Below are positions 1,182 to 11,801 of a stretch of 20,999 nucleotides of DNA, one piece after another. The DNA is from a virus: positions 1 to 20,999 of the IMG/VR virus record IMGVR_UViG_3300017697_000127, one strand, 5' to 3'. Made by a program: the position numbers and the translations under genes. The notes under the pieces were generated by a model, which saw only the letters and a program-made list of their open reading frames with translations, did no database searches and had not been told where the DNA came from. Every line of letters begins with the position of its first letter. Position 1 is the stretch's first letter.

Positions 1182-1664
1182 TTATTTACGCATGGCCTCT
1201 GCGAGATTCTGAATCCACCAAAAAAGTTCGTGCTCCGGCAACGTGTGCTTCATGATGTTTATGCGCAAACAGACAAGCTGCACATTCATTGGCTTGCTCG
1301 CGTATCCGATGTCGGGGTTAATCCGGTCAAGCGAAACGTTCATTTCTTTTCGCCCCTTGCCGTCTTTTGCATAAGTCATCCTGACACCCGATAGCGCGCA
1401 CTTCCCGCCCTGTAGTTCCCACAGCCCCAACAAATCAGCCAACGTGATGTCAAACGTCAGCCCCCGTTTTTTGGCTCCGTATCGCGCTTTGTTAAGTAGG
1501 TTTCTTAAATATGCGCGGGGGCTTGCGTTCGCTCGAACCTGCTCACTGTTTGTGCGGCACCGCCTGCAAACTGGCTCGACGCTTCCGTTCGCCCTCATGT
1601 AGAAATCAGCAACCGGCTTCTCTGTGCTGCAAACCGTGCAGGTCTTGGTTTCGCCTACCGTCAA
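1182..1664 (-). CDS. HNH endonuclease with N-terminal zinc knuckle
   Basis: The start is TTG (1662-1664), overlapping the TGA of the primase-helicase gene as TTGA, with GAGGT seven bases before it. This makes a 160-aa protein. Residues 9-36 contain two CxxC pairs (CTVC, CRRC), a probable zinc knuckle. The nuclease core runs from about residue 87: GKCALSG, then SLDRINPDIGY (113-116 DRIN), then NVQLVCLRINIMK. This is the pattern of phage and homing-type HNH proteins, in which the first 'H' position is occupied by Asp. It probably nicks or cuts DNA at a metal-dependent site. The coupling to the primase-helicase suggests a replication or packaging role rather than a free-standing homing element, though an intron-less homing nuclease remains possible. 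Confidence 0.85.
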   Translation of the reverse strand: MTVGETKTCTVCSTEKPVADFYMRANGSVEPVCRRCRTNSEQVRANASPRAYLRNLLNKARYGAKKRGLTFDITLADLLGLWELQGGKCALSGVRMTYAKDGKGRKEMNVSLDRINPDIGYASKPMNVQLVCLRINIMKHTLPEHELFWWIQNLAEAMRK

Positions 1665-3919
1665 AACGGTACCTCGTCTGACCAGTTTGCGGGGTCGAGC
1701 GGATCAAGATCCTCTACCGCCTCAACGACCTCATTGTTTTTGATGTTGTGGTGGGTAAGGAATGCCTGCAATGCGATCTTCGGGCGCGCAAACTCAACGC
1801 AATACAATTGTCGGTTTGCGACTCGCTTTCTTGACTCGCGGACAATTAAACCATCGATATCGTGCAGGTGCTTCCAGAACTGCGACTCCTTGCGTGCGTT
1901 CTCGAAGCGGCCCTTCACGCTCGAAACATAGCATTGGTAAATGCTGTGCTTGGCCTCTGCGCTTCCGAACTCAAAAACATCGCCATTGGAACGCTGCTCT
2001 CGAAACTCACCGGAGCTTATGCAGTCGAGCACCCATTGATCAATAGTGTCCAGAGACAGCAGCTTTTGCTGATCGAGTGCCGCCGTGCTTGGGGCGACCC
2101 TCACATCAACTGAGCTGAGGTCAAAACTCTTGAAGAAGTGCAGTAGGTGCTCGGCACCGCCTCGGTCATACCAGCGCCGAAGATCGCCAAAATATTTTGC
2201 GTTCTGCATTTGACACGGGGACACATCGAAGACCGCGAATCTGCGCTCGTCGAGCGATGCCGGGACTACCCACTCCTCGTTGGAGGTGAACAGCAGCCGC
2301 GTGTAGTTATTGGAGCTATAGCTGTCCATTCCCTTACGCTCTACGGTGATGCGGTTGTTGGTCATAAGGTCTTTCAATGCCCCCTCGGCTGCCTTGTTCC
2401 TCGCCCAGTAAGCCTCGTCACATTGCAACAGTAACGTATCCTCTAAGTGGCGGTTGAACTTGCCGGTAACGTGATCTGCTTTCGATACAATACGGTGGTG
2501 GGGCTTGCACAAGCCGCCGACCAGCTCCCCGAAAAATGACTTGCCGGAGCCTTTCTTTCCGCGCAGCGTAATCCCAACACCCACCTTGGACTGGGGCTTC
2601 TGGATCATCTGCGCAACCCATCCGAGGATGTATCTTGCGTGGTCCTCGTCGCCGCCTGCGATCACGTTGGTCACGAACTCGATAAATGGAGACACATCGC
2701 CCTGAACCGGCTTGTAGCTCCAGCCTCGCCATAGATTGTATTTGTTTAGCACCTGACCATCGGGCGAGAAGCAGATGCCCCCCGCGTATGTTCTGCGGTC
2801 AGGGTGCTCAAGCCACATATCGGCTAAATTCATCATCCGAGGCTTGTCACTCCCGTGATCCAACACCTTTTGGTTAGCGAACTCCTTCTTGAGATCGTCG
2901 AGCTTATAAAGAATTATTTGGTCGCTGTTCAATTCCTCCCTTAGCACTCTGGCGCTGCCCTCAACTTGCACAAAGGCCCAGTTATTGAGCATAGAGGGTA
3001 GGCGTTCTTCAATTACCTCTACGCTCTCGGACTTTTTTGCTTCAAACTTAAGCGAGGCCATAGTGACCTTCGCACCGCTGTAATCACCGAAGGACTCCCA
3101 CCGTTTCGCGCACTCTCCCTCTTTAAATTTGTCAGAGTCCATTGACCATGTCTCAAAAAGCTCAAGCCCCTCAACATCTCCACCGAACTGGTGGTGCAGG
3201 GCCATTCCAACCCGGACCCATGAGTCGTGGTCGCCGTCAGCATCGAGCGTCTGTAAAATCTCGCTTATCTCCTCTGCGCCCATATCCAGCGCGGCCTTAA
3301 AATTCATCAGCTCGTCGTGGGCCTGCTGCTTCTCGCGGGTGCCTTCCTTTTCTGCCACCCAGCCAAGCTCTTCAGCCTGCTGCTCAAAAAACGTAATAAA
3401 CGCGCTGGCTATGTCGCTGGTCAGAGCAGGGAGATCCTCATGGAAAACGTCAGCCAGCGTCGGACCAGCAACCCACTCATATGGTTTCAAGGTCTTTGGG
3501 TGTATACCGTAGGCGATGAACTGCTGCCCAGCCCCCAAAATCTCAACGGCGTGCGTGACACCATCGCCGCAAACAAACTCCTTTGAGCGCATCTTCCTCA
3601 TGCCCTCGACGTTTCTATAAGGCACAACGCACTTCGGGTTGAGGCCAATTCGGGCCGCTGGCATACCTATATTATCTTTCAGCCAGTGCAGCAGGCGGTT
3701 GTTGAGTGCCTTGTTGTGGCAGTCGATGTCCACTGCCGCTGTCGTATTACACAGCACGCCGATCCCGAACTCGGGCATCTCGGTGATCCAATCCTGCACT
3801 AATTCAGGCGTTGACTGTATTTTTTGCCAGCCCAAACCGTTGGGTCTTTTCTTCGCTGGCAGGGTCGGGATGATGTTATACCCGCGCTCAACCATTCGGT
3901 GACCATACTGATCTATCAT
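1661..3919 (-). CDS. Bifunctional primase-polymerase / superfamily 3-like helicase
   Basis: This 752-aa protein should make primers and unwind DNA at the phage fork. Residues 1-170 form a Prim-Pol (AEP-type) domain: an early KKRP basic patch, the metal-binding VDID pair (D64, D66) and downstream THAVEIL. Residues about 210-290 match the primase C-terminal-2 linker (DHDSWVRVGMALHH and WESFGDY). Residues 400-600 form the D5/VirE-like ATPase: Walker A GKKGSGKS (454-461), Walker B LLLQCDEA (D501, E502), sensor FTSNEE (544-549) and arginine finger DERRFAVFD. The C-terminus (655-752) looks like a winged-helix region with an acidic tail. AGGGGAAG precedes the ATG at 3917-3919. It is the main product of the leftward early operon and the natural partner of the Pol A enzyme encoded on the opposite strand. 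Confidence 0.93.
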   Translation of the reverse strand: MIDQYGHRMVERGYNIIPTLPAKKRPNGLGWQKIQSTPELVQDWITEMPEFGIGVLCNTTAAVDIDCHNKALNNRLLHWLKDNIGMPAARIGLNPKCVVPYRNVEGMRKMRSKEFVCGDGVTHAVEILGAGQQFIAYGIHPKTLKPYEWVAGPTLADVFHEDLPALTSDIASAFITFFEQQAEELGWVAEKEGTREKQQAHDELMNFKAALDMGAEEISEILQTLDADGDHDSWVRVGMALHHQFGGDVEGLELFETWSMDSDKFKEGECAKRWESFGDYSGAKVTMASLKFEAKKSESVEVIEERLPSMLNNWAFVQVEGSARVLREELNSDQIILYKLDDLKKEFANQKVLDHGSDKPRMMNLADMWLEHPDRRTYAGGICFSPDGQVLNKYNLWRGWSYKPVQGDVSPFIEFVTNVIAGGDEDHARYILGWVAQMIQKPQSKVGVGITLRGKKGSGKSFFGELVGGLCKPHHRIVSKADHVTGKFNRHLEDTLLLQCDEAYWARNKAAEGALKDLMTNNRITVERKGMDSYSSNNYTRLLFTSNEEWVVPASLDERRFAVFDVSPCQMQNAKYFGDLRRWYDRGGAEHLLHFFKSFDLSSVDVRVAPSTAALDQQKLLSLDTIDQWVLDCISSGEFREQRSNGDVFEFGSAEAKHSIYQCYVSSVKGRFENARKESQFWKHLHDIDGLIVRESRKRVANRQLYCVEFARPKIALQAFLTHHNIKNNEVVEAVEDLDPLDPANWSDEVPF

Positions 3920-3935
3920 TTACTTCCCCTAAACT

Positions 3936-4076
3936 CTAAAGATGATCTGCTGCCTTTCGATCCGCCCAGTCCGCTGCCCTTTCTAGCAACTCAACCAGCT
4001 TGTCTGCAATGCGCTCCAACAATTTTGCAAGGTTTGAGCAGCACCACCAGAGCACTTGATAAAGCTGTGCCCTCAT
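3936..4076 (-). CDS. 46-aa helical protein between regulator and primase
   Basis: The ATG (4074-4076) overlaps the TGA of the upstream HTH gene as ATGA, and the stop lies 16 bases before the primase start. The 46-residue product begins MRAQLYQVLWWCCSNLAKLL and continues with ERIADKLVELLERAADWADR. It is a nearly continuous amphipathic helix with heptad-like Leu/Ile/Ala spacing and a WWCC cluster. It may dimerise or bind the neighbouring helicase, but no family is recognised. Coupling on both sides and the regular helix make it likely to be a true gene despite its length. Confidence 0.6.
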   Translation of the reverse strand: MRAQLYQVLWWCCSNLAKLLERIADKLVELLERAADWADRKAADHL

Positions 4077-4333
4077 TTCTTTACAAGCTCAATGGTCTCG
4101 CGCAGCAGCGAAGGGCATAGCGTGCGCCATGTCATCTCGCCGTCTGTCAGATGCTCTATTTGAATAGCCCGCATCGGTGGAACCTCTCCACGAGAGCGCC
4201 ACGCCGCCACATTTTGTTTCTCCACATCGAACATTGCGGCTAGCTGTCTGTCGCTTCGCAAAGCGAAAATGTTTTTCAGCTCATCGAGAGCGTTGTTGAC
4301 CTGTGTTTGGTCGCTGCTGATACCAGTTTTCAT
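4073..4333 (-). CDS. Cro/YdaS-like HTH transcription regulator
   Basis: The open frame extends to 4441, but its upstream part covers the promoter/operator region. The ATG at 4331-4333 (MKTGISSDQTQ...), with GGAAA about eight bases before it, is the sensible start and gives 86 aa. Residues about 22-60 (FALRSDRQLAAMFDVEKQNV, then AAWRSRGEVPPMRAIQIEHL) form the classic lambda-repressor-like helix-turn-helix of the short Cro/CII/YdaS group, which ends 'W...G.vP..ra..ie.lT.G...w..L'. It is the first gene of the leftward early operon and lies directly beside a palindromic divergent promoter, as expected for a Cro-type lysis/lysogeny switch protein. The other repressor candidate lies at 9901-10551. 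Confidence 0.82.
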   Translation of the reverse strand: MKTGISSDQTQVNNALDELKNIFALRSDRQLAAMFDVEKQNVAAWRSRGEVPPMRAIQIEHLTDGEMTWRTLCPSLLRETIELVKK

Positions 4334-4351
4334 CTGTTTTATTTCCAAAAG

Positions 4352-4384
4352 TTGACAATAGCGTTTGCAATCTACTATTGTCAG
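4352..4384. promoter_or_regulatory. Two opposed, overlapping early promoters inside one palindrome
   Basis: TGACAATAG (4353-4361) and CTATTGTCA (4375-4383) are perfect 9-bp inverted repeats with a 13-bp spacer. Rightward, TTGACA (4352-4357), 18 bases and TATTGT (4376-4381) form a promoter towards the polymerase operon. Leftward, CTGACA (4379-4384), 18 bases and TATTGT (4355-4360) form one towards the HTH/primase operon. Each arm is thus the -35 of one promoter and the -10 of the other. A dimeric repressor on the palindrome would block both. The positions are read directly; the function is inferred. Confidence 0.65.
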
Positions 4385-4394
4385 GAGCAATATA

Positions 4395-4409
4395 CAACCA
4401 AAGTGGTTG
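4395..4409. promoter_or_regulatory. Candidate operator, CAACCA-AAG-TGGTTG
   Basis: This is a perfect 6-bp inverted repeat with a 3-bp centre, placed just downstream of the expected rightward transcription start and upstream of the DUF2800 ribosome-binding site. A palindrome of this size in this place suits a Cro- or CI-type operator. The half-site CAACCAAA also occurs at 761-768 on the minus strand, upstream of the 91-aa HTH-like gene. Confidence 0.4.
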
Positions 4410-4429
4410 ATAAAAGTTAGGGGAATTTT

Positions 4430-5563
4430 TTGCAGCAGCAAGATTTAGTGCTTGAGACAGCTCACGCGGAGTTGAGCGCAAGCAGTGCGCATAGGTGGAT
4501 CGCGTGTCCAGCGAGCGTCAGCGAGAGCCGAGGACTTCCGAACACAAGTAGCCGTGCCGCTGAGGAGGGGACAGCCGCGCATGAGCTTGCAGAAACTTGC
4601 CTGAGAGACGGTTCAAATCCTTGCGATCATCTAGGCAAGACCTTTAACAGCTTTGTGGTTGATGAGGAAATGGCTGATGCGGTCGGCATGTACACAGACT
4701 TTTGCCGCGCATTGCCGCAGGGCAGGTCGCACGTTGAGCAGCGTCTGGATTTCTCGCTCTGGGTTCCGGGGGGATTTGGCACCGCTGACTTTGTCGCCAT
4801 CGCTGAGGGCGAAGCTTGGGTGGTCGATCTGAAATTTGGCAGGCATCTGGTTCGCGCAGACAGCGATCAACTGAAATGCTACGCCCTTGGGGTCATCAAC
4901 CAGTTTGGTTTCGATGCACAAATAGACACCATTCACATGACCATCGTGCAGCCCAGAATCTTTCGCAAAGACACACATACCATGCGAGTCACCGAGCTTC
5001 TGAAGTGGGGCAAGCAAGTGCTTCAGCCAGCGGCAAAGGCGGCGCTCGGTGAAAACCCAGACTTCAATCCGAGCGAGTCGGCTTGTCGATTCTGCCGCGC
5101 TGCTGAGACATGTAAGCCGTTGGCGCAGCACGCACTGGCGCAGGCAGGCATGAGCTTCGATGACCTCACGCTGCCATCTAACAAATTGACAACAGACGAG
5201 GTCGCGGAGCTGCTGCCGAATCTTGGGTTGATCAAGAGCTGGTGCGAAAAGGTTGCCGCGAAGGCTCAGAGCCTTGCAGCCGAGGGCCATGTCATTGAGG
5301 GCTACAAGCTTGTCCGCGCAAAGACCAACCGCCGTTGGGCCGATGAAAAGCAGGCGCTTCAGCTCATGCAGAAGCTAACCAACGAGCCGGTCTACACGGC
5401 TAAAACTATTTCACCAACTCAAGCCTTAAAAATCTTGGGCGATGAAAACGAGGAGCTAAATCAGCTCATCACAAAACCTGAAGGCAAGCCGACCTTGGTG
5501 CCAGATAGCGATAAGCGATCTGCCATCAATGTTGTCGAAGGCTTCGACGCAATAGAAAAGTAA
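4430..5563 (+). CDS. DUF2800 family, Cas4/RecB-like PD-(D/E)XK nuclease with Fe-S cysteines
   Basis: The start is TTG (4430-4432), five bases after AGGGGA; no ATG precedes the conserved N-terminus. The 377-aa protein opens with the family signature AELSASSAHRWIACPAS and has EEGTAAHELAE (45-55). The nuclease motifs are GTAD (D120), then VVDLKFG (D133, K135), then DQLKCYAL (Q147, Y151). Cys26 together with CRFCRAAETC (C219, C222, C228) makes the four-cysteine set used for a 4Fe-4S cluster in Cas4 and AddB nucleases. A role in DNA end processing, recombination or replication is expected. It is the first gene of the rightward operon and is followed 13 bases later by the DUF2815 gene, its usual partner. 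Confidence 0.9.
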   Translation: MQQQDLVLETAHAELSASSAHRWIACPASVSESRGLPNTSSRAAEEGTAAHELAETCLRDGSNPCDHLGKTFNSFVVDEEMADAVGMYTDFCRALPQGRSHVEQRLDFSLWVPGGFGTADFVAIAEGEAWVVDLKFGRHLVRADSDQLKCYALGVINQFGFDAQIDTIHMTIVQPRIFRKDTHTMRVTELLKWGKQVLQPAAKAALGENPDFNPSESACRFCRAAETCKPLAQHALAQAGMSFDDLTLPSNKLTTDEVAELLPNLGLIKSWCEKVAAKAQSLAAEGHVIEGYKLVRAKTNRRWADEKQALQLMQKLTNEPVYTAKTISPTQALKILGDENEELNQLITKPEGKPTLVPDSDKRSAINVVEGFDAIEK

Positions 5564-5576
5564 AAGGAAAAATAAA

Positions 5577-6128
5577 ATGAACGAACTAGTAATCAAAAAC
5601 GCACGACTGAGTTTCCCAAGCCTGTTCAAGCCCTCCGCATTCGATGCAGGGGCGCAGCCAAAGTATTCAGCGACCCTAATTCTGGACAAGAAAGAGGACG
5701 CTGCCGCTATCGCTACGCTGAGGCAGCTCGTTAGCGCACTCGCAACCGAGCAGTGGAGCAAGCTACCGAAGAAGGTGTTCTACTCCCTGCAAGACGGCGA
5801 CACGCTTGACCGCGCCGAGTACGAAGGAAAGTACATAGTTAAGGCCAACAACAAAAAGCGTGTCCCGATCATTGACAAAGATCTTACTGCTCTCGTTGAG
5901 GAAGACGAGCGCCCATATGCGGGTTGCTATGTAAACGCAAAGGTTAGATTTTACGCATGGTCTAACGGCACTAGCTTTAACGGAGTACTGTGCTCGTTGG
6001 AGGCCGTTCAGTTTGCCAAGGACGGCGACAGCTTTGGCGGTGGTGGCAACGCACTTGATGGCTTTGATGCCATTGAGAGCGAGACCGCAGTGGATGTTGC
6101 AGAGGAGGCCGAGGAGTTCCTAGCTTGA
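5577..6128 (+). CDS. DUF2815 family, probable single-stranded DNA-binding protein
   Basis: The 183-aa product begins MNELVIKNARLSFPSLFKPS after an AAAAGGAAAAATAAA leader. It shows the family's OB-fold-like pattern: 'arLSFPsLfkP', then PKYSATLILDKK, then a central GKYIVKANNKKRVPIID, RPYAGCYVNAKVRFYAW and FNGVLCSLEAVQFAKDGD. The tail is Gly-rich, then acidic (GGGGN ... EEAEEFLA), like the partner-binding acidic tails of SSB and T7 gp2.5. It presumably coats ssDNA and recruits the polymerase and nuclease encoded beside it. Its stop overlaps the start of the polymerase gene (TTGA), so equal expression is likely. The family assignment is firm; the ssDNA-binding role is inferred from family and context. 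Confidence 0.9.
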   Translation: MNELVIKNARLSFPSLFKPSAFDAGAQPKYSATLILDKKEDAAAIATLRQLVSALATEQWSKLPKKVFYSLQDGDTLDRAEYEGKYIVKANNKKRVPIIDKDLTALVEEDERPYAGCYVNAKVRFYAWSNGTSFNGVLCSLEAVQFAKDGDSFGGGGNALDGFDAIESETAVDVAEEAEEFLA

Positions 6129-7999
6129 TCATCTCGCTGGACTTTGAGACCTACTCCGAATGCGACATTCGGAAGGCGGGTGCGTTTGCGTATGCAGACC
6201 ACCCATCGACTGAGGTTATCTGTTTGGCGTGGTCGCTGAACGACGAGCTTCCGGTGCTCTGGACCCCCGACATGCCAGCGCCCACTGATTTGTTTCGACT
6301 GATCGAAAAAGGCGCAGAGGTCTGGGCATGGAATAGCTTCTTTGAGCTTTCGATTTGGGAGAGGGTGCTCCATTGGCCCTCGATCAAGATCACTCAGTGG
6401 AACGACACCGCCGCGCTGGCTGCTGCGCAGGCGTACCCAAGGGCGTTGGGCAAATGCGGGGAGTTTATGGGGATGACCGGGGATGCAGCGAAAGACAAGC
6501 GCGGAAAATACCTCATTCAGCGGCTGTGCAAGCCCTACAGAGGCGAGCGGGTTCGAGACCCAGAGCTGCTGCAAGAGCTGTATGACTACTGCCTTCAAGA
6601 TGTGGTTGCAGAAAGAGCGATACGAAAAAAGCTGCGGCCTCTTCACCCTACCGAGCGACAGGTATGGGTCACCGATCAGAAGATGAACCTGCGGGGTGTG
6701 CGTCTAGATAAAGATAACATAGGCCACGCCATCGCCATCATTGAAAAGCTTGCGATTGAGTTAAATGCAGAGGTCTATGAGTTGACAAACGGCGCTCTCT
6801 CCTCGACGGCCTCAAGAGCAAAGTCGCTTGAATGGATCAACGCGCAGGGCGTGAAGATGGATTCATATGATAAGGCAGCCGTCACCTGTGCGCTTGAAGG
6901 TGTATGCCCTCCAGATGTGTATAGGTTCCTGCAAATAAGGCAGGCGCTTTCTAAGTCCTCTACCAAAAAGTATCAGGCGATGCTTGACTGCTTGGCTCGG
7001 GATAACCGCGCCCACGGCACCGGCATGTACCACGGGGCAGCCACAGGGCGATGGTCTGGCAGGCACTTTCAGCCTCAAAATCTCCCGCGCCCAGTCGTCG
7101 ATGACGTTGATTCGGTGATTGATGTGCTCAAATACCGCAGCACCCAGCAGCTCGACGGCGAACCAATGGCGCTGCTTGCCTCCTGCCTTCGCGGGATGCT
7201 GATTGCAGGCAAGGGCAGAAGGCTTCTTGTCAGTGATTACAGCGCGATAGAGGCGAGGGTTTTGGCGTGGCTTGCTGGTCACGAAACCGTATTGCAGAGC
7301 TTCAGAGACGGACTGGATCTGTACAAGGTGACGGCCTCTGACATGTACGGCATTCCGTACAGCGATGTCGATAAAGATCAAAGATTTCTCGCTAAAATCG
7401 CAACGCTGGCCCTTGGTTATCAGGGTGGGGTCAAAGCCTTCCAAAAGATGGCGCAAAACTTTGGGACCGTGGTGGACGATGAGCAGGCGCTGAAGATCCG
7501 TGACGAATGGCGTGCCACAAATAAACCTATTGTCAGGCTGTGGCATGAGATTGAGGCCGCTGCTGTTAAGGCTGTTCAATTTGGAAAGGCCGACACCAGC
7601 ATTGGTGTGTTTAACATGGTTAAAAACGATCTTGTGTTTGTCCTGCCGTCTCAGAGGCTTCTGTCATTCCCGAAAGCGCAGGTCAGCAATCTAAAACTTA
7701 GCTACCACGGCATGAACAACTACACACATAAGTGGGAAGCCATCCCCACCTATGGCGGCTCACTGGTTCAAAGCATAACGCAGGCCGTTGCCAGAGACCT
7801 TCTGGCACACAGCCTGTTGTTAATTGAGCAAGCTGGCTACGACCCCGTCATGACGGTTCATGATGAGATTGTTGCCGACACGCGCATTAATCACGGATCG
7901 TTAGACGAGTTCAACACATTAATGTGCGAGCTGCCGAAGTGGGCAACCGGGCTGCCGATGGCTGTTGAGGGCTACGAGGCGGAGAGGTACAGAAAGTGA
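6125..7999 (+). CDS. polA: Family A DNA polymerase with 3'-5' exonuclease domain
   Basis: The start is TTG (6125-6127), overlapping the previous stop, and gives 624 aa (MIISLDFETYSECD...). The proofreading domain shows Exo I DFET (6-9), Exo II WNSFFE (69-74) and Exo III YCLQD (155-159). The polymerase domain shows GAATGRWSG (304-312), motif A VSDYSAIEARV (D371, E376), motif B RFLAKIATLALGYQGG (420-435) and motif C VHDE (578-581). It has no 5'-nuclease domain, as usual for phage enzymes. In motif B the residue matching E. coli Pol I Phe762 is Leu428, the variant that studies of marine viruses link to temperate phages. It is the replicative polymerase, embedded in the rightward operon and coupled to the next gene by TGATG. 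Confidence 0.97.
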   Translation: MIISLDFETYSECDIRKAGAFAYADHPSTEVICLAWSLNDELPVLWTPDMPAPTDLFRLIEKGAEVWAWNSFFELSIWERVLHWPSIKITQWNDTAALAAAQAYPRALGKCGEFMGMTGDAAKDKRGKYLIQRLCKPYRGERVRDPELLQELYDYCLQDVVAERAIRKKLRPLHPTERQVWVTDQKMNLRGVRLDKDNIGHAIAIIEKLAIELNAEVYELTNGALSSTASRAKSLEWINAQGVKMDSYDKAAVTCALEGVCPPDVYRFLQIRQALSKSSTKKYQAMLDCLARDNRAHGTGMYHGAATGRWSGRHFQPQNLPRPVVDDVDSVIDVLKYRSTQQLDGEPMALLASCLRGMLIAGKGRRLLVSDYSAIEARVLAWLAGHETVLQSFRDGLDLYKVTASDMYGIPYSDVDKDQRFLAKIATLALGYQGGVKAFQKMAQNFGTVVDDEQALKIRDEWRATNKPIVRLWHEIEAAAVKAVQFGKADTSIGVFNMVKNDLVFVLPSQRLLSFPKAQVSNLKLSYHGMNNYTHKWEAIPTYGGSLVQSITQAVARDLLAHSLLLIEQAGYDPVMTVHDEIVADTRINHGSLDEFNTLMCELPKWATGLPMAVEGYEAERYRK

Positions 8000-9884: not shown

Positions 9885-9899
9885 ACAACTAGGAGTTGT
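9885..9899. promoter_or_regulatory. Palindrome ACAACT-AGG-AGTTGT across the repressor ribosome-binding site
   Basis: This perfect 6-bp inverted repeat with a 3-base centre lies between the repressor promoter and its ATG and includes the AGGAG Shine-Dalgarno. It could be an autoregulatory operator, or an RNA hairpin hiding the ribosome-binding site, although a 3-base loop is tight. It shares CAAC...GTTG outer halves with the palindrome at 4395-4409. Confidence 0.4.
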
Positions 9900-9900
9900 T

Positions 9901-10551
9901 ATGTCTAGTTTTTATAGTCGTTTGAACGAGTCCTGCGCAGTTAGCACGAAAGTCCCACCGCACGGTAAGGGTCAGCAGACTTACATAGCCAGAGAGCTTG
10001 GCTGCTCTCAAGAGGCGGTGCGGAAGTGGTTTGCCAACGAATCTGTGCCAAGGGCAAAGATCGGAGCTAAGTTAGCAAAGCTACTTGATGTCTCGTACAC
10101 ATGGTTGATGTTGGGTGCCGCGCTTGGTGAGGTCGAAGAGGAAATAAAAAAGGCAAAAAACCATGACGCTGCCGTCTACTCTACATTGGCCTACGCCATC
10201 GTAAAAAATGTCGGAGCATCGTTGTGCGGCGATGATCACCCCGCTGATATGCTCATTATCGACAACGGGGTGTCGAGGCATGTCTGCGCAAAAGCTGCGG
10301 GTGAGACAAAAGACAATGGTGTTTTTGTGGCCACGTTTAGAAAAATTCAGGTTAAAGAGAGCACCACTGTCGTAGTTTTCAACCAGATCAGCAAGGACTC
10401 TATCGTCAAGTCAACCTTTCTGGAGATCCCAGAAGAGGCGTGGCAGGGTAAGAATGTGAAAACAAACGGAAACGAGATTACGTTGACCTTTACTCGCAAA
10501 GGAAATTCTTACGAGGCCAGCGGTATCAAACTTAAAAGCTTTTTGGGGTAG
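9901..10551 (+). CDS. CI-like phage repressor (XRE-type HTH)
   Basis: The 216-aa protein starts at an ATG after a strong AGGAG. Residues about 24-65 (GQQTYIARELGCSQEAVRKW, FANESVPRAKIGAKLAKLLD, then VSYTWLMLG) form a textbook lambda-repressor HTH with the 'ls..WLl.G' end. A charged linker (EVEEEIKKAKN) follows. The C-terminal half (about 90-216) is beta-rich (VVVFNQIS, EITLTFTRKGN) but has no clear Ser-Lys pair of an S24 self-cleaving peptidase, so it may be an oligomerisation domain. It is the best candidate for the lysogeny repressor: it has its own promoter, lies with the Xis-like gene and integrase, and is apart from the Cro-like gene. If it is not cleaved, induction must use another route such as an antirepressor. 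Confidence 0.8.
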   Translation: MSSFYSRLNESCAVSTKVPPHGKGQQTYIARELGCSQEAVRKWFANESVPRAKIGAKLAKLLDVSYTWLMLGAALGEVEEEIKKAKNHDAAVYSTLAYAIVKNVGASLCGDDHPADMLIIDNGVSRHVCAKAAGETKDNGVFVATFRKIQVKESTTVVVFNQISKDSIVKSTFLEIPEEAWQGKNVKTNGNEITLTFTRKGNSYEASGIKLKSFLG

Positions 10552-10754: not shown

Positions 10755-10771
10755 AGTGGCTCTCACCACTT
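10754..10771. terminator. Weak hairpin between convergent genes
   Basis: AAGTGG and CCACTT pair across a 6-base CTCTCA loop, exactly between the convergent stops of the Xis-like gene and the integrase. There is no T-run, so termination would be weak or Rho-assisted. The symmetry makes it usable from both sides. Confidence 0.25.
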
Positions 10772-11801
10772 ACAGGCCTCTATCTTTCAGGTTCCCCACA
10801 ATCGTCTCTGCTCGCAAGTGTGTGTATGACTGAAGCATTTGGATGTCCCTGTGACCGCTAAACATTGCGATCTCTGAAGGCAAGAAGATACCCATCTCGG
10901 TCAGTCTGCTGACACCCTCATGGCGCAGGTCGTGCCACACCAAATCCTTGATGCCAGCCTTGTCACGATAAATGTTGAAAACCTTAGCCGCGTGATCCGA
11001 GCTGATGTTGAAAATAAAGTCTCCTTCCGGCTCTCGGCTGTCGATTATTTCCATCGCCTCCTGCAACAGCGGCACGCGGCTGTAAACCTTTCCCTCTCGC
11101 GGATGCTTTCGCCAAATGCCAATTGTTCTTTCCTCCCGGTCCAACTCATCCCAACGCAAAGTGAACTGCTCCCCGCGCCTCATCGCGGTTATGACAGCGA
11201 AGCGCATAACCTCGGGCAGAGACCACGATCTTGACTGACTGCCTTGATAGTCGTCCAGCAGCCACTCTTCGGTAATGGCATTCATTTCTTCGTCAGTCAC
11301 GCGACGAGTTCGACGATCAGACTTTTTTAGAAACTTTTGGGAGGTTAGATATTGCCGGGCGAGATTGAACTCCTCGATATCGGGCTTGAGGCGCATGTAT
11401 GTTTCTGCAAATTTCAACATAGTGCGAAGGTAGGCAAACATGTTGTTGATCGAGCTTGCCTTGACCTCGTGTTTTCGTTCTTCAACGTACTCAAAAAGCA
11501 CCTCTCTGGTCATCTCTTTGAGTTGTAGGTGACCGAATCGCTTGTCAATTTGCCGGTACACTTTCGCCTTGTCTTCTGAAAGTTCCAGAGTCGCAAAACT
11601 TTTTGCTATCACATCAGAAACCAAAACCTTTTCACTTTTATAAGCCCCTTTTTCTAAAGCGACTTCGGTGGTGTTGGCAAAATCATTTGCAAGCTTCCAT
11701 TTGCTAAAAGTTTTGCTGATCGCAGGCTGTCCGGCTTTTCGAATCAAGACCCGATACCGTGTGTTGCCCCTTGCGTCTTTGCGTTTTTGAATGACAGCCA
11801 T
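10770..11801 (-). CDS. int: Tyrosine-type phage integrase
   Basis: The ATG follows GGGATCAAG and gives 343 aa, a normal length. An N-terminal arm-binding part (MAVIQKRKDARGNTRYRVLI..., about 1-60) is followed by a SAM-like core-binding domain (about 60-155) and the catalytic domain. The active site is complete: Arg208 in TAMRRGE (205-211), a basic strand near 231-240, HDLRH (H290, R293), SGH (H317) and nucleophile Tyr326 in QSYTH. It catalyses attP x attB recombination. It is transcribed convergently to the repressor/Xis unit and its upstream region is the candidate attP, as in many temperate phages. Confidence 0.96.
   Translation of the reverse strand: MAVIQKRKDARGNTRYRVLIRKAGQPAISKTFSKWKLANDFANTTEVALEKGAYKSEKVLVSDVIAKSFATLELSEDKAKVYRQIDKRFGHLQLKEMTREVLFEYVEERKHEVKASSINNMFAYLRTMLKFAETYMRLKPDIEEFNLARQYLTSQKFLKKSDRRTRRVTDEEMNAITEEWLLDDYQGSQSRSWSLPEVMRFAVITAMRRGEQFTLRWDELDREERTIGIWRKHPREGKVYSRVPLLQEAMEIIDSREPEGDFIFNISSDHAAKVFNIYRDKAGIKDLVWHDLRHEGVSRLTEMGIFLPSEIAMFSGHRDIQMLQSYTHLRAETIVGNLKDRGL

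Follow-up and report, generated by a model that had tools for sequence, protein, structure and literature searches.

A palindrome between two replication operons of a temperate-phage-like virus as their probable bidirectional early promoter

A palindrome between divergent operons

The window analysed here is the whole stretch of a virus record, 20,999 bases long and temperate-phage-like. At 4352–4384 it contains a palindrome that sits between two divergent operons, cro–primase and exonuclease (DUF2800)–polA, as judged from the open reading frames and Pfam. The reading that we consider probable is that 4352–4384 is the bidirectional early promoter of the virus, in which two opposed sigma70-type promoters occupying the same 33 bp would be fired together and shut by a repressor. 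We infer promoter activity, start sites, the pairing of proteins with sites and the logic of co-firing from the sequence. The genes concerned are as follows.

1661–3919, minus strand: primase, with Prim-Pol, PriCT_2 and DUF5906 domains
4073–4333, minus strand: Cro-like HTH regulator of 86 aa; YdaS_toxin and Phage_CI_repr matches above cutoff, P22_Cro just below
4430–5563, plus strand: DUF2800 exonuclease-like protein, with a favoured TTG start at 4430
5577–6128, plus strand: Enc34-type ssDNA-binding protein (domain match)
6125–7999, plus strand: DNA polymerase family A (domain match)
9901–10551, plus strand: HTH_3 repressor of 216 aa, with a P22 c2-like HTH and a C-terminal domain of PD-(D/E)XK fold in the predicted model
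10770–11801, minus strand: integrase (domain match)

The TTG at 4430 is favoured as the start of the DUF2800 gene because relatives begin at the aligned position. The rightward order runs from DUF2800 through the ssDNA-binding protein, DNA polymerase A, a VRR-NUC-like gene (plus strand; match below the Pfam cutoff) and an SNF2 helicase to the 216-aa repressor, after which comes the convergent integrase. Domain matches uphold the gene labels of the preliminary description, among them Cro-like protein, primase, polymerase and repressor.

Interlocked promoter-like boxes on the inverted repeat

Direct reading of the window gives the 33 bases at 4352–4384 as TTGACAATAGCGTTTGCAATCTACTATTGTCAG, in which the repeat is written TTGACAATAG/CTATTGTCAG. 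The arms TGACAATAG (4353–4361) and CTATTGTCA (4375–4383) are perfect inverted repeats, as had been claimed, of 9 bp each and lying 13 bp apart. No other perfect 9-bp repeat of this kind with a loop of up to 20 bases exists in the window. When the intergenic region was dinucleotide-shuffled, 1.3% of the shuffles held one. The following elements are predicted on it.

4352–4384: interlocked divergent promoter pair on the inverted repeat (arms, scores and shuffles)
4352–4381, plus strand: TTGACA-18-TATTGT, candidate A for the rightward promoter, which would transcribe the DUF2800/ssb/polA/SNF2 operon from a predicted start at about 4388
4355–4384, minus strand: CTGACA-18-TATTGT, putative promoter reading leftward into cro and primase (aligned pairs); predicted start at about 4348

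On the plus strand, TTGACA (4352–4357) is followed after an 18-bp spacer by TATTGT (4376–4381), with 10/12 consensus matches, and on the minus strand CTGACA (4384–4379) is followed after an 18-bp spacer by TATTGT (4360–4355), with 9/12; the boxes were scored as sigma70-type, a consensus that may not be the host's. TTGACA at 4352–4357 overlaps the minus-strand TATTGT at 4355–4360, and on the other side the minus-strand CTGACA at 4379–4384 overlaps the plus-strand TATTGT at 4376–4381, which are coinciding boxes of the pLS20 Pc/Pr type. The earlier statement that either arm serves one promoter as its −35 and the opposite promoter as its −10, with 18-bp spacers in both directions, is thus confirmed in the sequence. 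The combined interlocked score of the window is 19/24 (p = 0.0033, the minimum attainable with the 300 dinucleotide shuffles used). A promoter scan over the whole window found 17 against 13.1 expected, overall no better than chance, and single hexamer matches are therefore little proof.

Conservation of the layout in relatives

Relatives were collected from scans of viral contigs. They comprised 80 loci, 75 of which have both Cro and DUF2800; the five that gave no DUF2800 match were left out. The relatives contain 56 distinct intergenic regions, which form 28 clusters at <80% identity. The interlocked score exceeded that of 300 dinucleotide shuffles at p < 0.05 in 25 of the 28 clusters and at p < 0.01 in 20, although the clusters are related to each other and their p-values are not independent. 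When 28 loci were scanned whole (303,553 bases), scores of at least 19 occurred 15 times within these intergenic regions and never outside; the corresponding counts were 24 and 2 for scores of at least 18, and 35 and 13 for scores of at least 17. Inverted −35 boxes 20–23 bp apart, with NANNNT at 16–18 bp on both strands, were present in 46/56 distinct intergenic regions (L081 being counted through a poor pair), and perfect TTGACA plus TGTCAA in 19/56. Spacers are 17 bp in both directions in L130 and 16 bp in both directions in L134. In a conditional test, in which the forward promoter was fixed and the remainder shuffled, the reverse promoter was significant in 15/28 clusters and failed at 0.05 in the other 13. 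The clusters of L063, L065 and L066, all close to the window (Cro identity 57–65%), fail the interlocked test. At the level of sequence, the interlocked layout is a trait of the family.

Comparison of window positions 3900–6000 with the DNA of named phages gave no match, nor did comparison of Cro with named phages, and no cultured member of the window's phage group was found. Repressor relatives in named phages show at most 42% identity among the matches listed. A scan of genome contigs with the polymerase alignment returned only two metagenome-assembled loci, one of which (L137) has the primase–cro–DUF2800 order. This contig, labelled 'uncultured proteobacterium', carries primase, cro, DUF2800, polA, SNF2 and repressor in the same order as the window.

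Which boxes act in the window's sub-clade

When seven near relatives, the window included, were aligned, the blocks GACAA, TTGCA, TTGTC and A..ATACAAC were invariant. The rightward −10 TATTGT is present only in the window and L058 among the seven, and is not kept in L059, L061, L063, L065 and L066. A second rightward element overlaps the palindrome.

4365–4393, plus strand: TTGCAA-17-CAATAT, candidate B for the rightward promoter; in the nearest relatives TTGCA and −10 positions 2, 5 and 6 are invariant

Because the near relatives that fail the interlocked test keep another possible rightward promoter, the exact boxes used in the window are uncertain. The rightward promoter of the preliminary description therefore stands in part: its 18-bp-spaced boxes exist, but the −10 is not kept in the nearest relatives and TTGCAA-17-CAATAT competes with it.

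Two rival readings give the palindrome another standing. That the palindrome arose by chance and has no promoter function would fit the window-wide promoter scan, which did not rise above shuffles, but is extremely unlikely given that the layout recurs at the same intergenic region in 25/28 clusters and that scores of at least 19 are absent elsewhere in the same loci. The other reading is confined to the window's sub-clade. In it the palindrome would serve mainly as an operator, GACAA-N19-TTGTC with TTGCA at its centre, to which Cro or the repressor would bind, rightward transcription would start from TTGCAA-17-CAATAT just downstream and the 18-bp-spaced rightward promoter would be a by-product of operator symmetry. 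The four invariant blocks alongside a variable TATTGT favour it, as do L065, which lacks any TTGACA box, and L067, L073 and L074, which have a similar TTGCAA-16/17-nATCTT element beside an interlocked pair. Against it, candidate B matches the consensus at only 7/12 positions in the window, and the window, L059 and 23 more distant clusters pass the interlocked test. We regard this operator reading as possible but rather unlikely, and prefer the bidirectional promoter.

A candidate repressor site beside the promoters

The repressor model (pLDDT 89) matches a P22 c2-like HTH over residues 1–73 (Z 11.4), and residues 79–216 match PD-(D/E)XK nuclease folds (I-Ssp6803I, Z 11.5, 120 residues aligned, r.m.s.d. 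3.0; Hjc, Z 9.6). Pfam gave no S24 match for the repressor, whose predicted C-terminal domain resembles these folds. D116 is invariant and fits the PD-(D/E)XK motif, and the acid of (D/E)xK is, by eye, not conserved; for this reason the modelled C-terminal domain is probably not an active nuclease. Two sites in the window resemble operators.

4394–4411: degenerate repressor-type site ACAACCAAAGTGGTTGAT, CAAC-N7-GTTG here versus CAAC-N5-GTTG in relatives
9885–9899: operator-type site ACAACTAGGAGTTGT, perfect, immediately ahead of the repressor's start codon and overlapping its likely Shine–Dalgarno sequence

Exact CAAC-N5-GTTG sites number 81 in 28 loci, versus 0–20 for each other spacing from N0 to N12. 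Within 120 bases upstream of the repressor, an exact site is found in 21/29 loci (background 0.032 per 120 bases) and a site scoring at least 7/8 in 28/29 (background 0.118 per 120 bases). Beside the promoters, sites are exact in 16 of the 28 switch clusters and score at least 7/8 in 23, and there are several relatives in which a −35 box is touched or overlapped by the site; the switch-side site of the window scores below 7/8. Of the 80 exact sites that were located in the 28-locus count, 18 belong to the switch, 7 precede the repressor, 16 follow the primase gene and 39 lie elsewhere. The recognition-helix segment QEAVRKWF of the repressor is invariant in 15 homologues, as expected if the repressor reads one conserved site. 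On this pattern, CAAC-N5-GTTG is likely to be a repressor site separate from the palindrome, and we infer that the 216-aa protein binds it. The earlier proposal that the palindrome is itself the repressor's operator, with one dimer stopping both promoters, is not supported in that form: CAAC-N5-GTTG is the motif found again at the promoter of the repressor itself, and it lies next to the −35 boxes or overlaps them.

A simple operator reading of the arms, in which a single dimer would reach across 22 bp, was also considered and rejected because the recurrent operator motif has CAA-N7-TTG spacing. Within-phage resemblance of the arms (p = 0.006 inner and 0.029 outer, stratified by spacing) was rejected as proof of dimer binding because composition and shared promoter constraints can yield it. 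As to the overlap of the CAAC-N5-GTTG site with −35 boxes, a G precedes TTGACA in 21/24 left arms and 19/24 right arms. These counts and the arm-resemblance test exclude the clusters of L063, L065, L066 and L081.

In relatives, CAAC-N5-GTTG sites cluster downstream of primase. The window has further overlapping opposed sigma70-like promoters at 1099–1154, TTGACA-17-TAAAAT (plus) and TTGACG-18-TAAATT (minus), which sit downstream of an endonuclease VII-like gene.

Proposed working of the element

In the bidirectional promoter that we favour, the −35 of each promoter would overlap the −10 of its opposite. Leftward RNA would encode Cro and primase, and rightward RNA the exonuclease, ssDNA-binding protein, polymerase and helicase. 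RNA polymerase would bind one way per event, taking turns, but both halves of replication could be fired from one place; the earlier suggestion of one direction at a time is supported to the extent that promoter overlap implies it. Joint shut-off would probably come from the 216-aa repressor, acting from the CAAC-N5-GTTG sites next to or overlapping the −35 boxes. The repressor probably also regulates itself through the same motif, and Cro probably feeds back at or near the palindrome.

The preliminary description went further, to a bistable either/or switch between the primase and polymerase operons. Full promoter overlap, which is visible in the sequence, does bar simultaneous occupancy, a steric point also made in PMC12825309. 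Five E. coli bidirectional promoters tested there are nevertheless described as showing little or no competition at basal activity, competition appearing only after one direction was strongly activated or strengthened (PMC12825309). Both operons of the window encode replication functions, and it is hard to see what the virus would gain by choosing one over the other; nor does the window show an activator dedicated to either direction. We therefore consider a switch of this kind very unlikely and retain the co-fired promoter. Provided that the interlocked boxes are in use, two operons would be started from a single short element and one repressor could silence both, an economy near the limit for a divergent promoter. 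That related viruses keep the layout suggests a compact start of the two halves of a DNA-copying programme from one spot.

Comparison with known systems

In the CI–Cro immunity switches of lambda, P22 and 434, an HTH repressor and Cro act at divergent early promoters. The window shares with them a P22 c2-like repressor HTH, and P22 c2 and 434 Cro were found as structural matches. It differs in that its cro faces an exonuclease–polymerase operon and the C-terminal domain of its repressor matches a nuclease fold. Nor do its repressor and cro genes diverge from a common operator region, as in the lambda type; they lie 5.5 kb apart (cro at 4073–4333, minus; repressor at 9901–10551, plus, at the end of its operon).

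The closest geometry is that of pLS20, for which coinciding boxes have already been proposed: the favoured Pr boxes coincide with swapped −10 and −35 positions of Pc, and Rco alone is described as controlling both promoters (PMC4207663). In contrast to the window, pLS20 has a switch for plasmid conjugation in which a strong promoter is paired with a weak one, Pr is activated and the DNA loops (PMC4207663), whereas the window has similar box sets both ways and phage replication genes in both operons. The shared −10 bidirectional promoters of Warman, Grainger and colleagues also have symmetric DNA that polymerase uses either way, singly (PMC12825309). That class is defined by a common −10 and divergent starts 7–25 bp apart (PMC10268837). 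The candidate −10s of the window (4355–4360 and 4376–4381) do not overlap, and its predicted starts are about 40 bp apart. With predicted start-to-start distances of about 37–40 bp, the interlocked type lies outside this 7–25 bp range (PMC10268837), and surveys with such a criterion would miss it. The same geometry was not found for phages in the open-access literature searched. Coinciding divergent boxes are thus known from pLS20; what is new is their conservation across a family, together with a 34-bp form that at least 120 viral stretches carry.

A 34-bp form beyond the family

The pattern TTGACANNNTAN{10,13}TANNNTGTCAA occurs in at least 120 stretches of viral contigs (L139–L258), mostly in the 34-bp form. 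In 98 of the 120 matches listed, the −35 boxes are separated by 22 bp, so that the spacer is 17 bp in either direction. A scrambled control pattern gave 40 stretches, 13 with 22-bp spacing; the difference in spacing between these and the at least 120 matches listed has a Fisher p of 2e-8 (8e-5 on distinct sequences). In the first 80 of the at least 120 loci, a simple ORF caller placed 63 between divergent ORFs, 6 between tandem ORFs, 6 at an edge, 4 inside ORFs and 1 between convergent ORFs; two of these 80 belong to the window's family. In sampled cases, a Pam3 gp32-like gene lies opposite an SNF2 helicase, and a terminase small subunit lies opposite a gene with only weak matches.

We tentatively propose, at somewhat less than even confidence, that this recurrent 34-bp double promoter, TTGACA-N3-TA-N12-TA-N3-TGTCAA, could be a distinct and widespread bidirectional architecture of bacterial viruses at many divergent gene pairs, of which the window's phage group would have a repressor-controlled version. 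The final A of each −35 is, on the complementary strand, the final T of the −10 facing it, which yields the ideal 17-bp spacer in both directions. Its recurrence in uncultured phage contigs offers a simple, testable sequence rule for the pairing of divergent genes in compact genomes.

One 34-bp case has pelagiphage relatives. The cultured pelagiphage HTVC027P, a relative of some other 34-bp matches, showed no interlocked pair in the two stretches read beside the corresponding gene junction, and the whole record of HTVC010P contains weak pairs only; both results count against a simple generalization of the 34-bp form. At the corresponding junction of 023Pt_psg01 (end of L302), TTGACA-N23-TGTCAA is present by eye.
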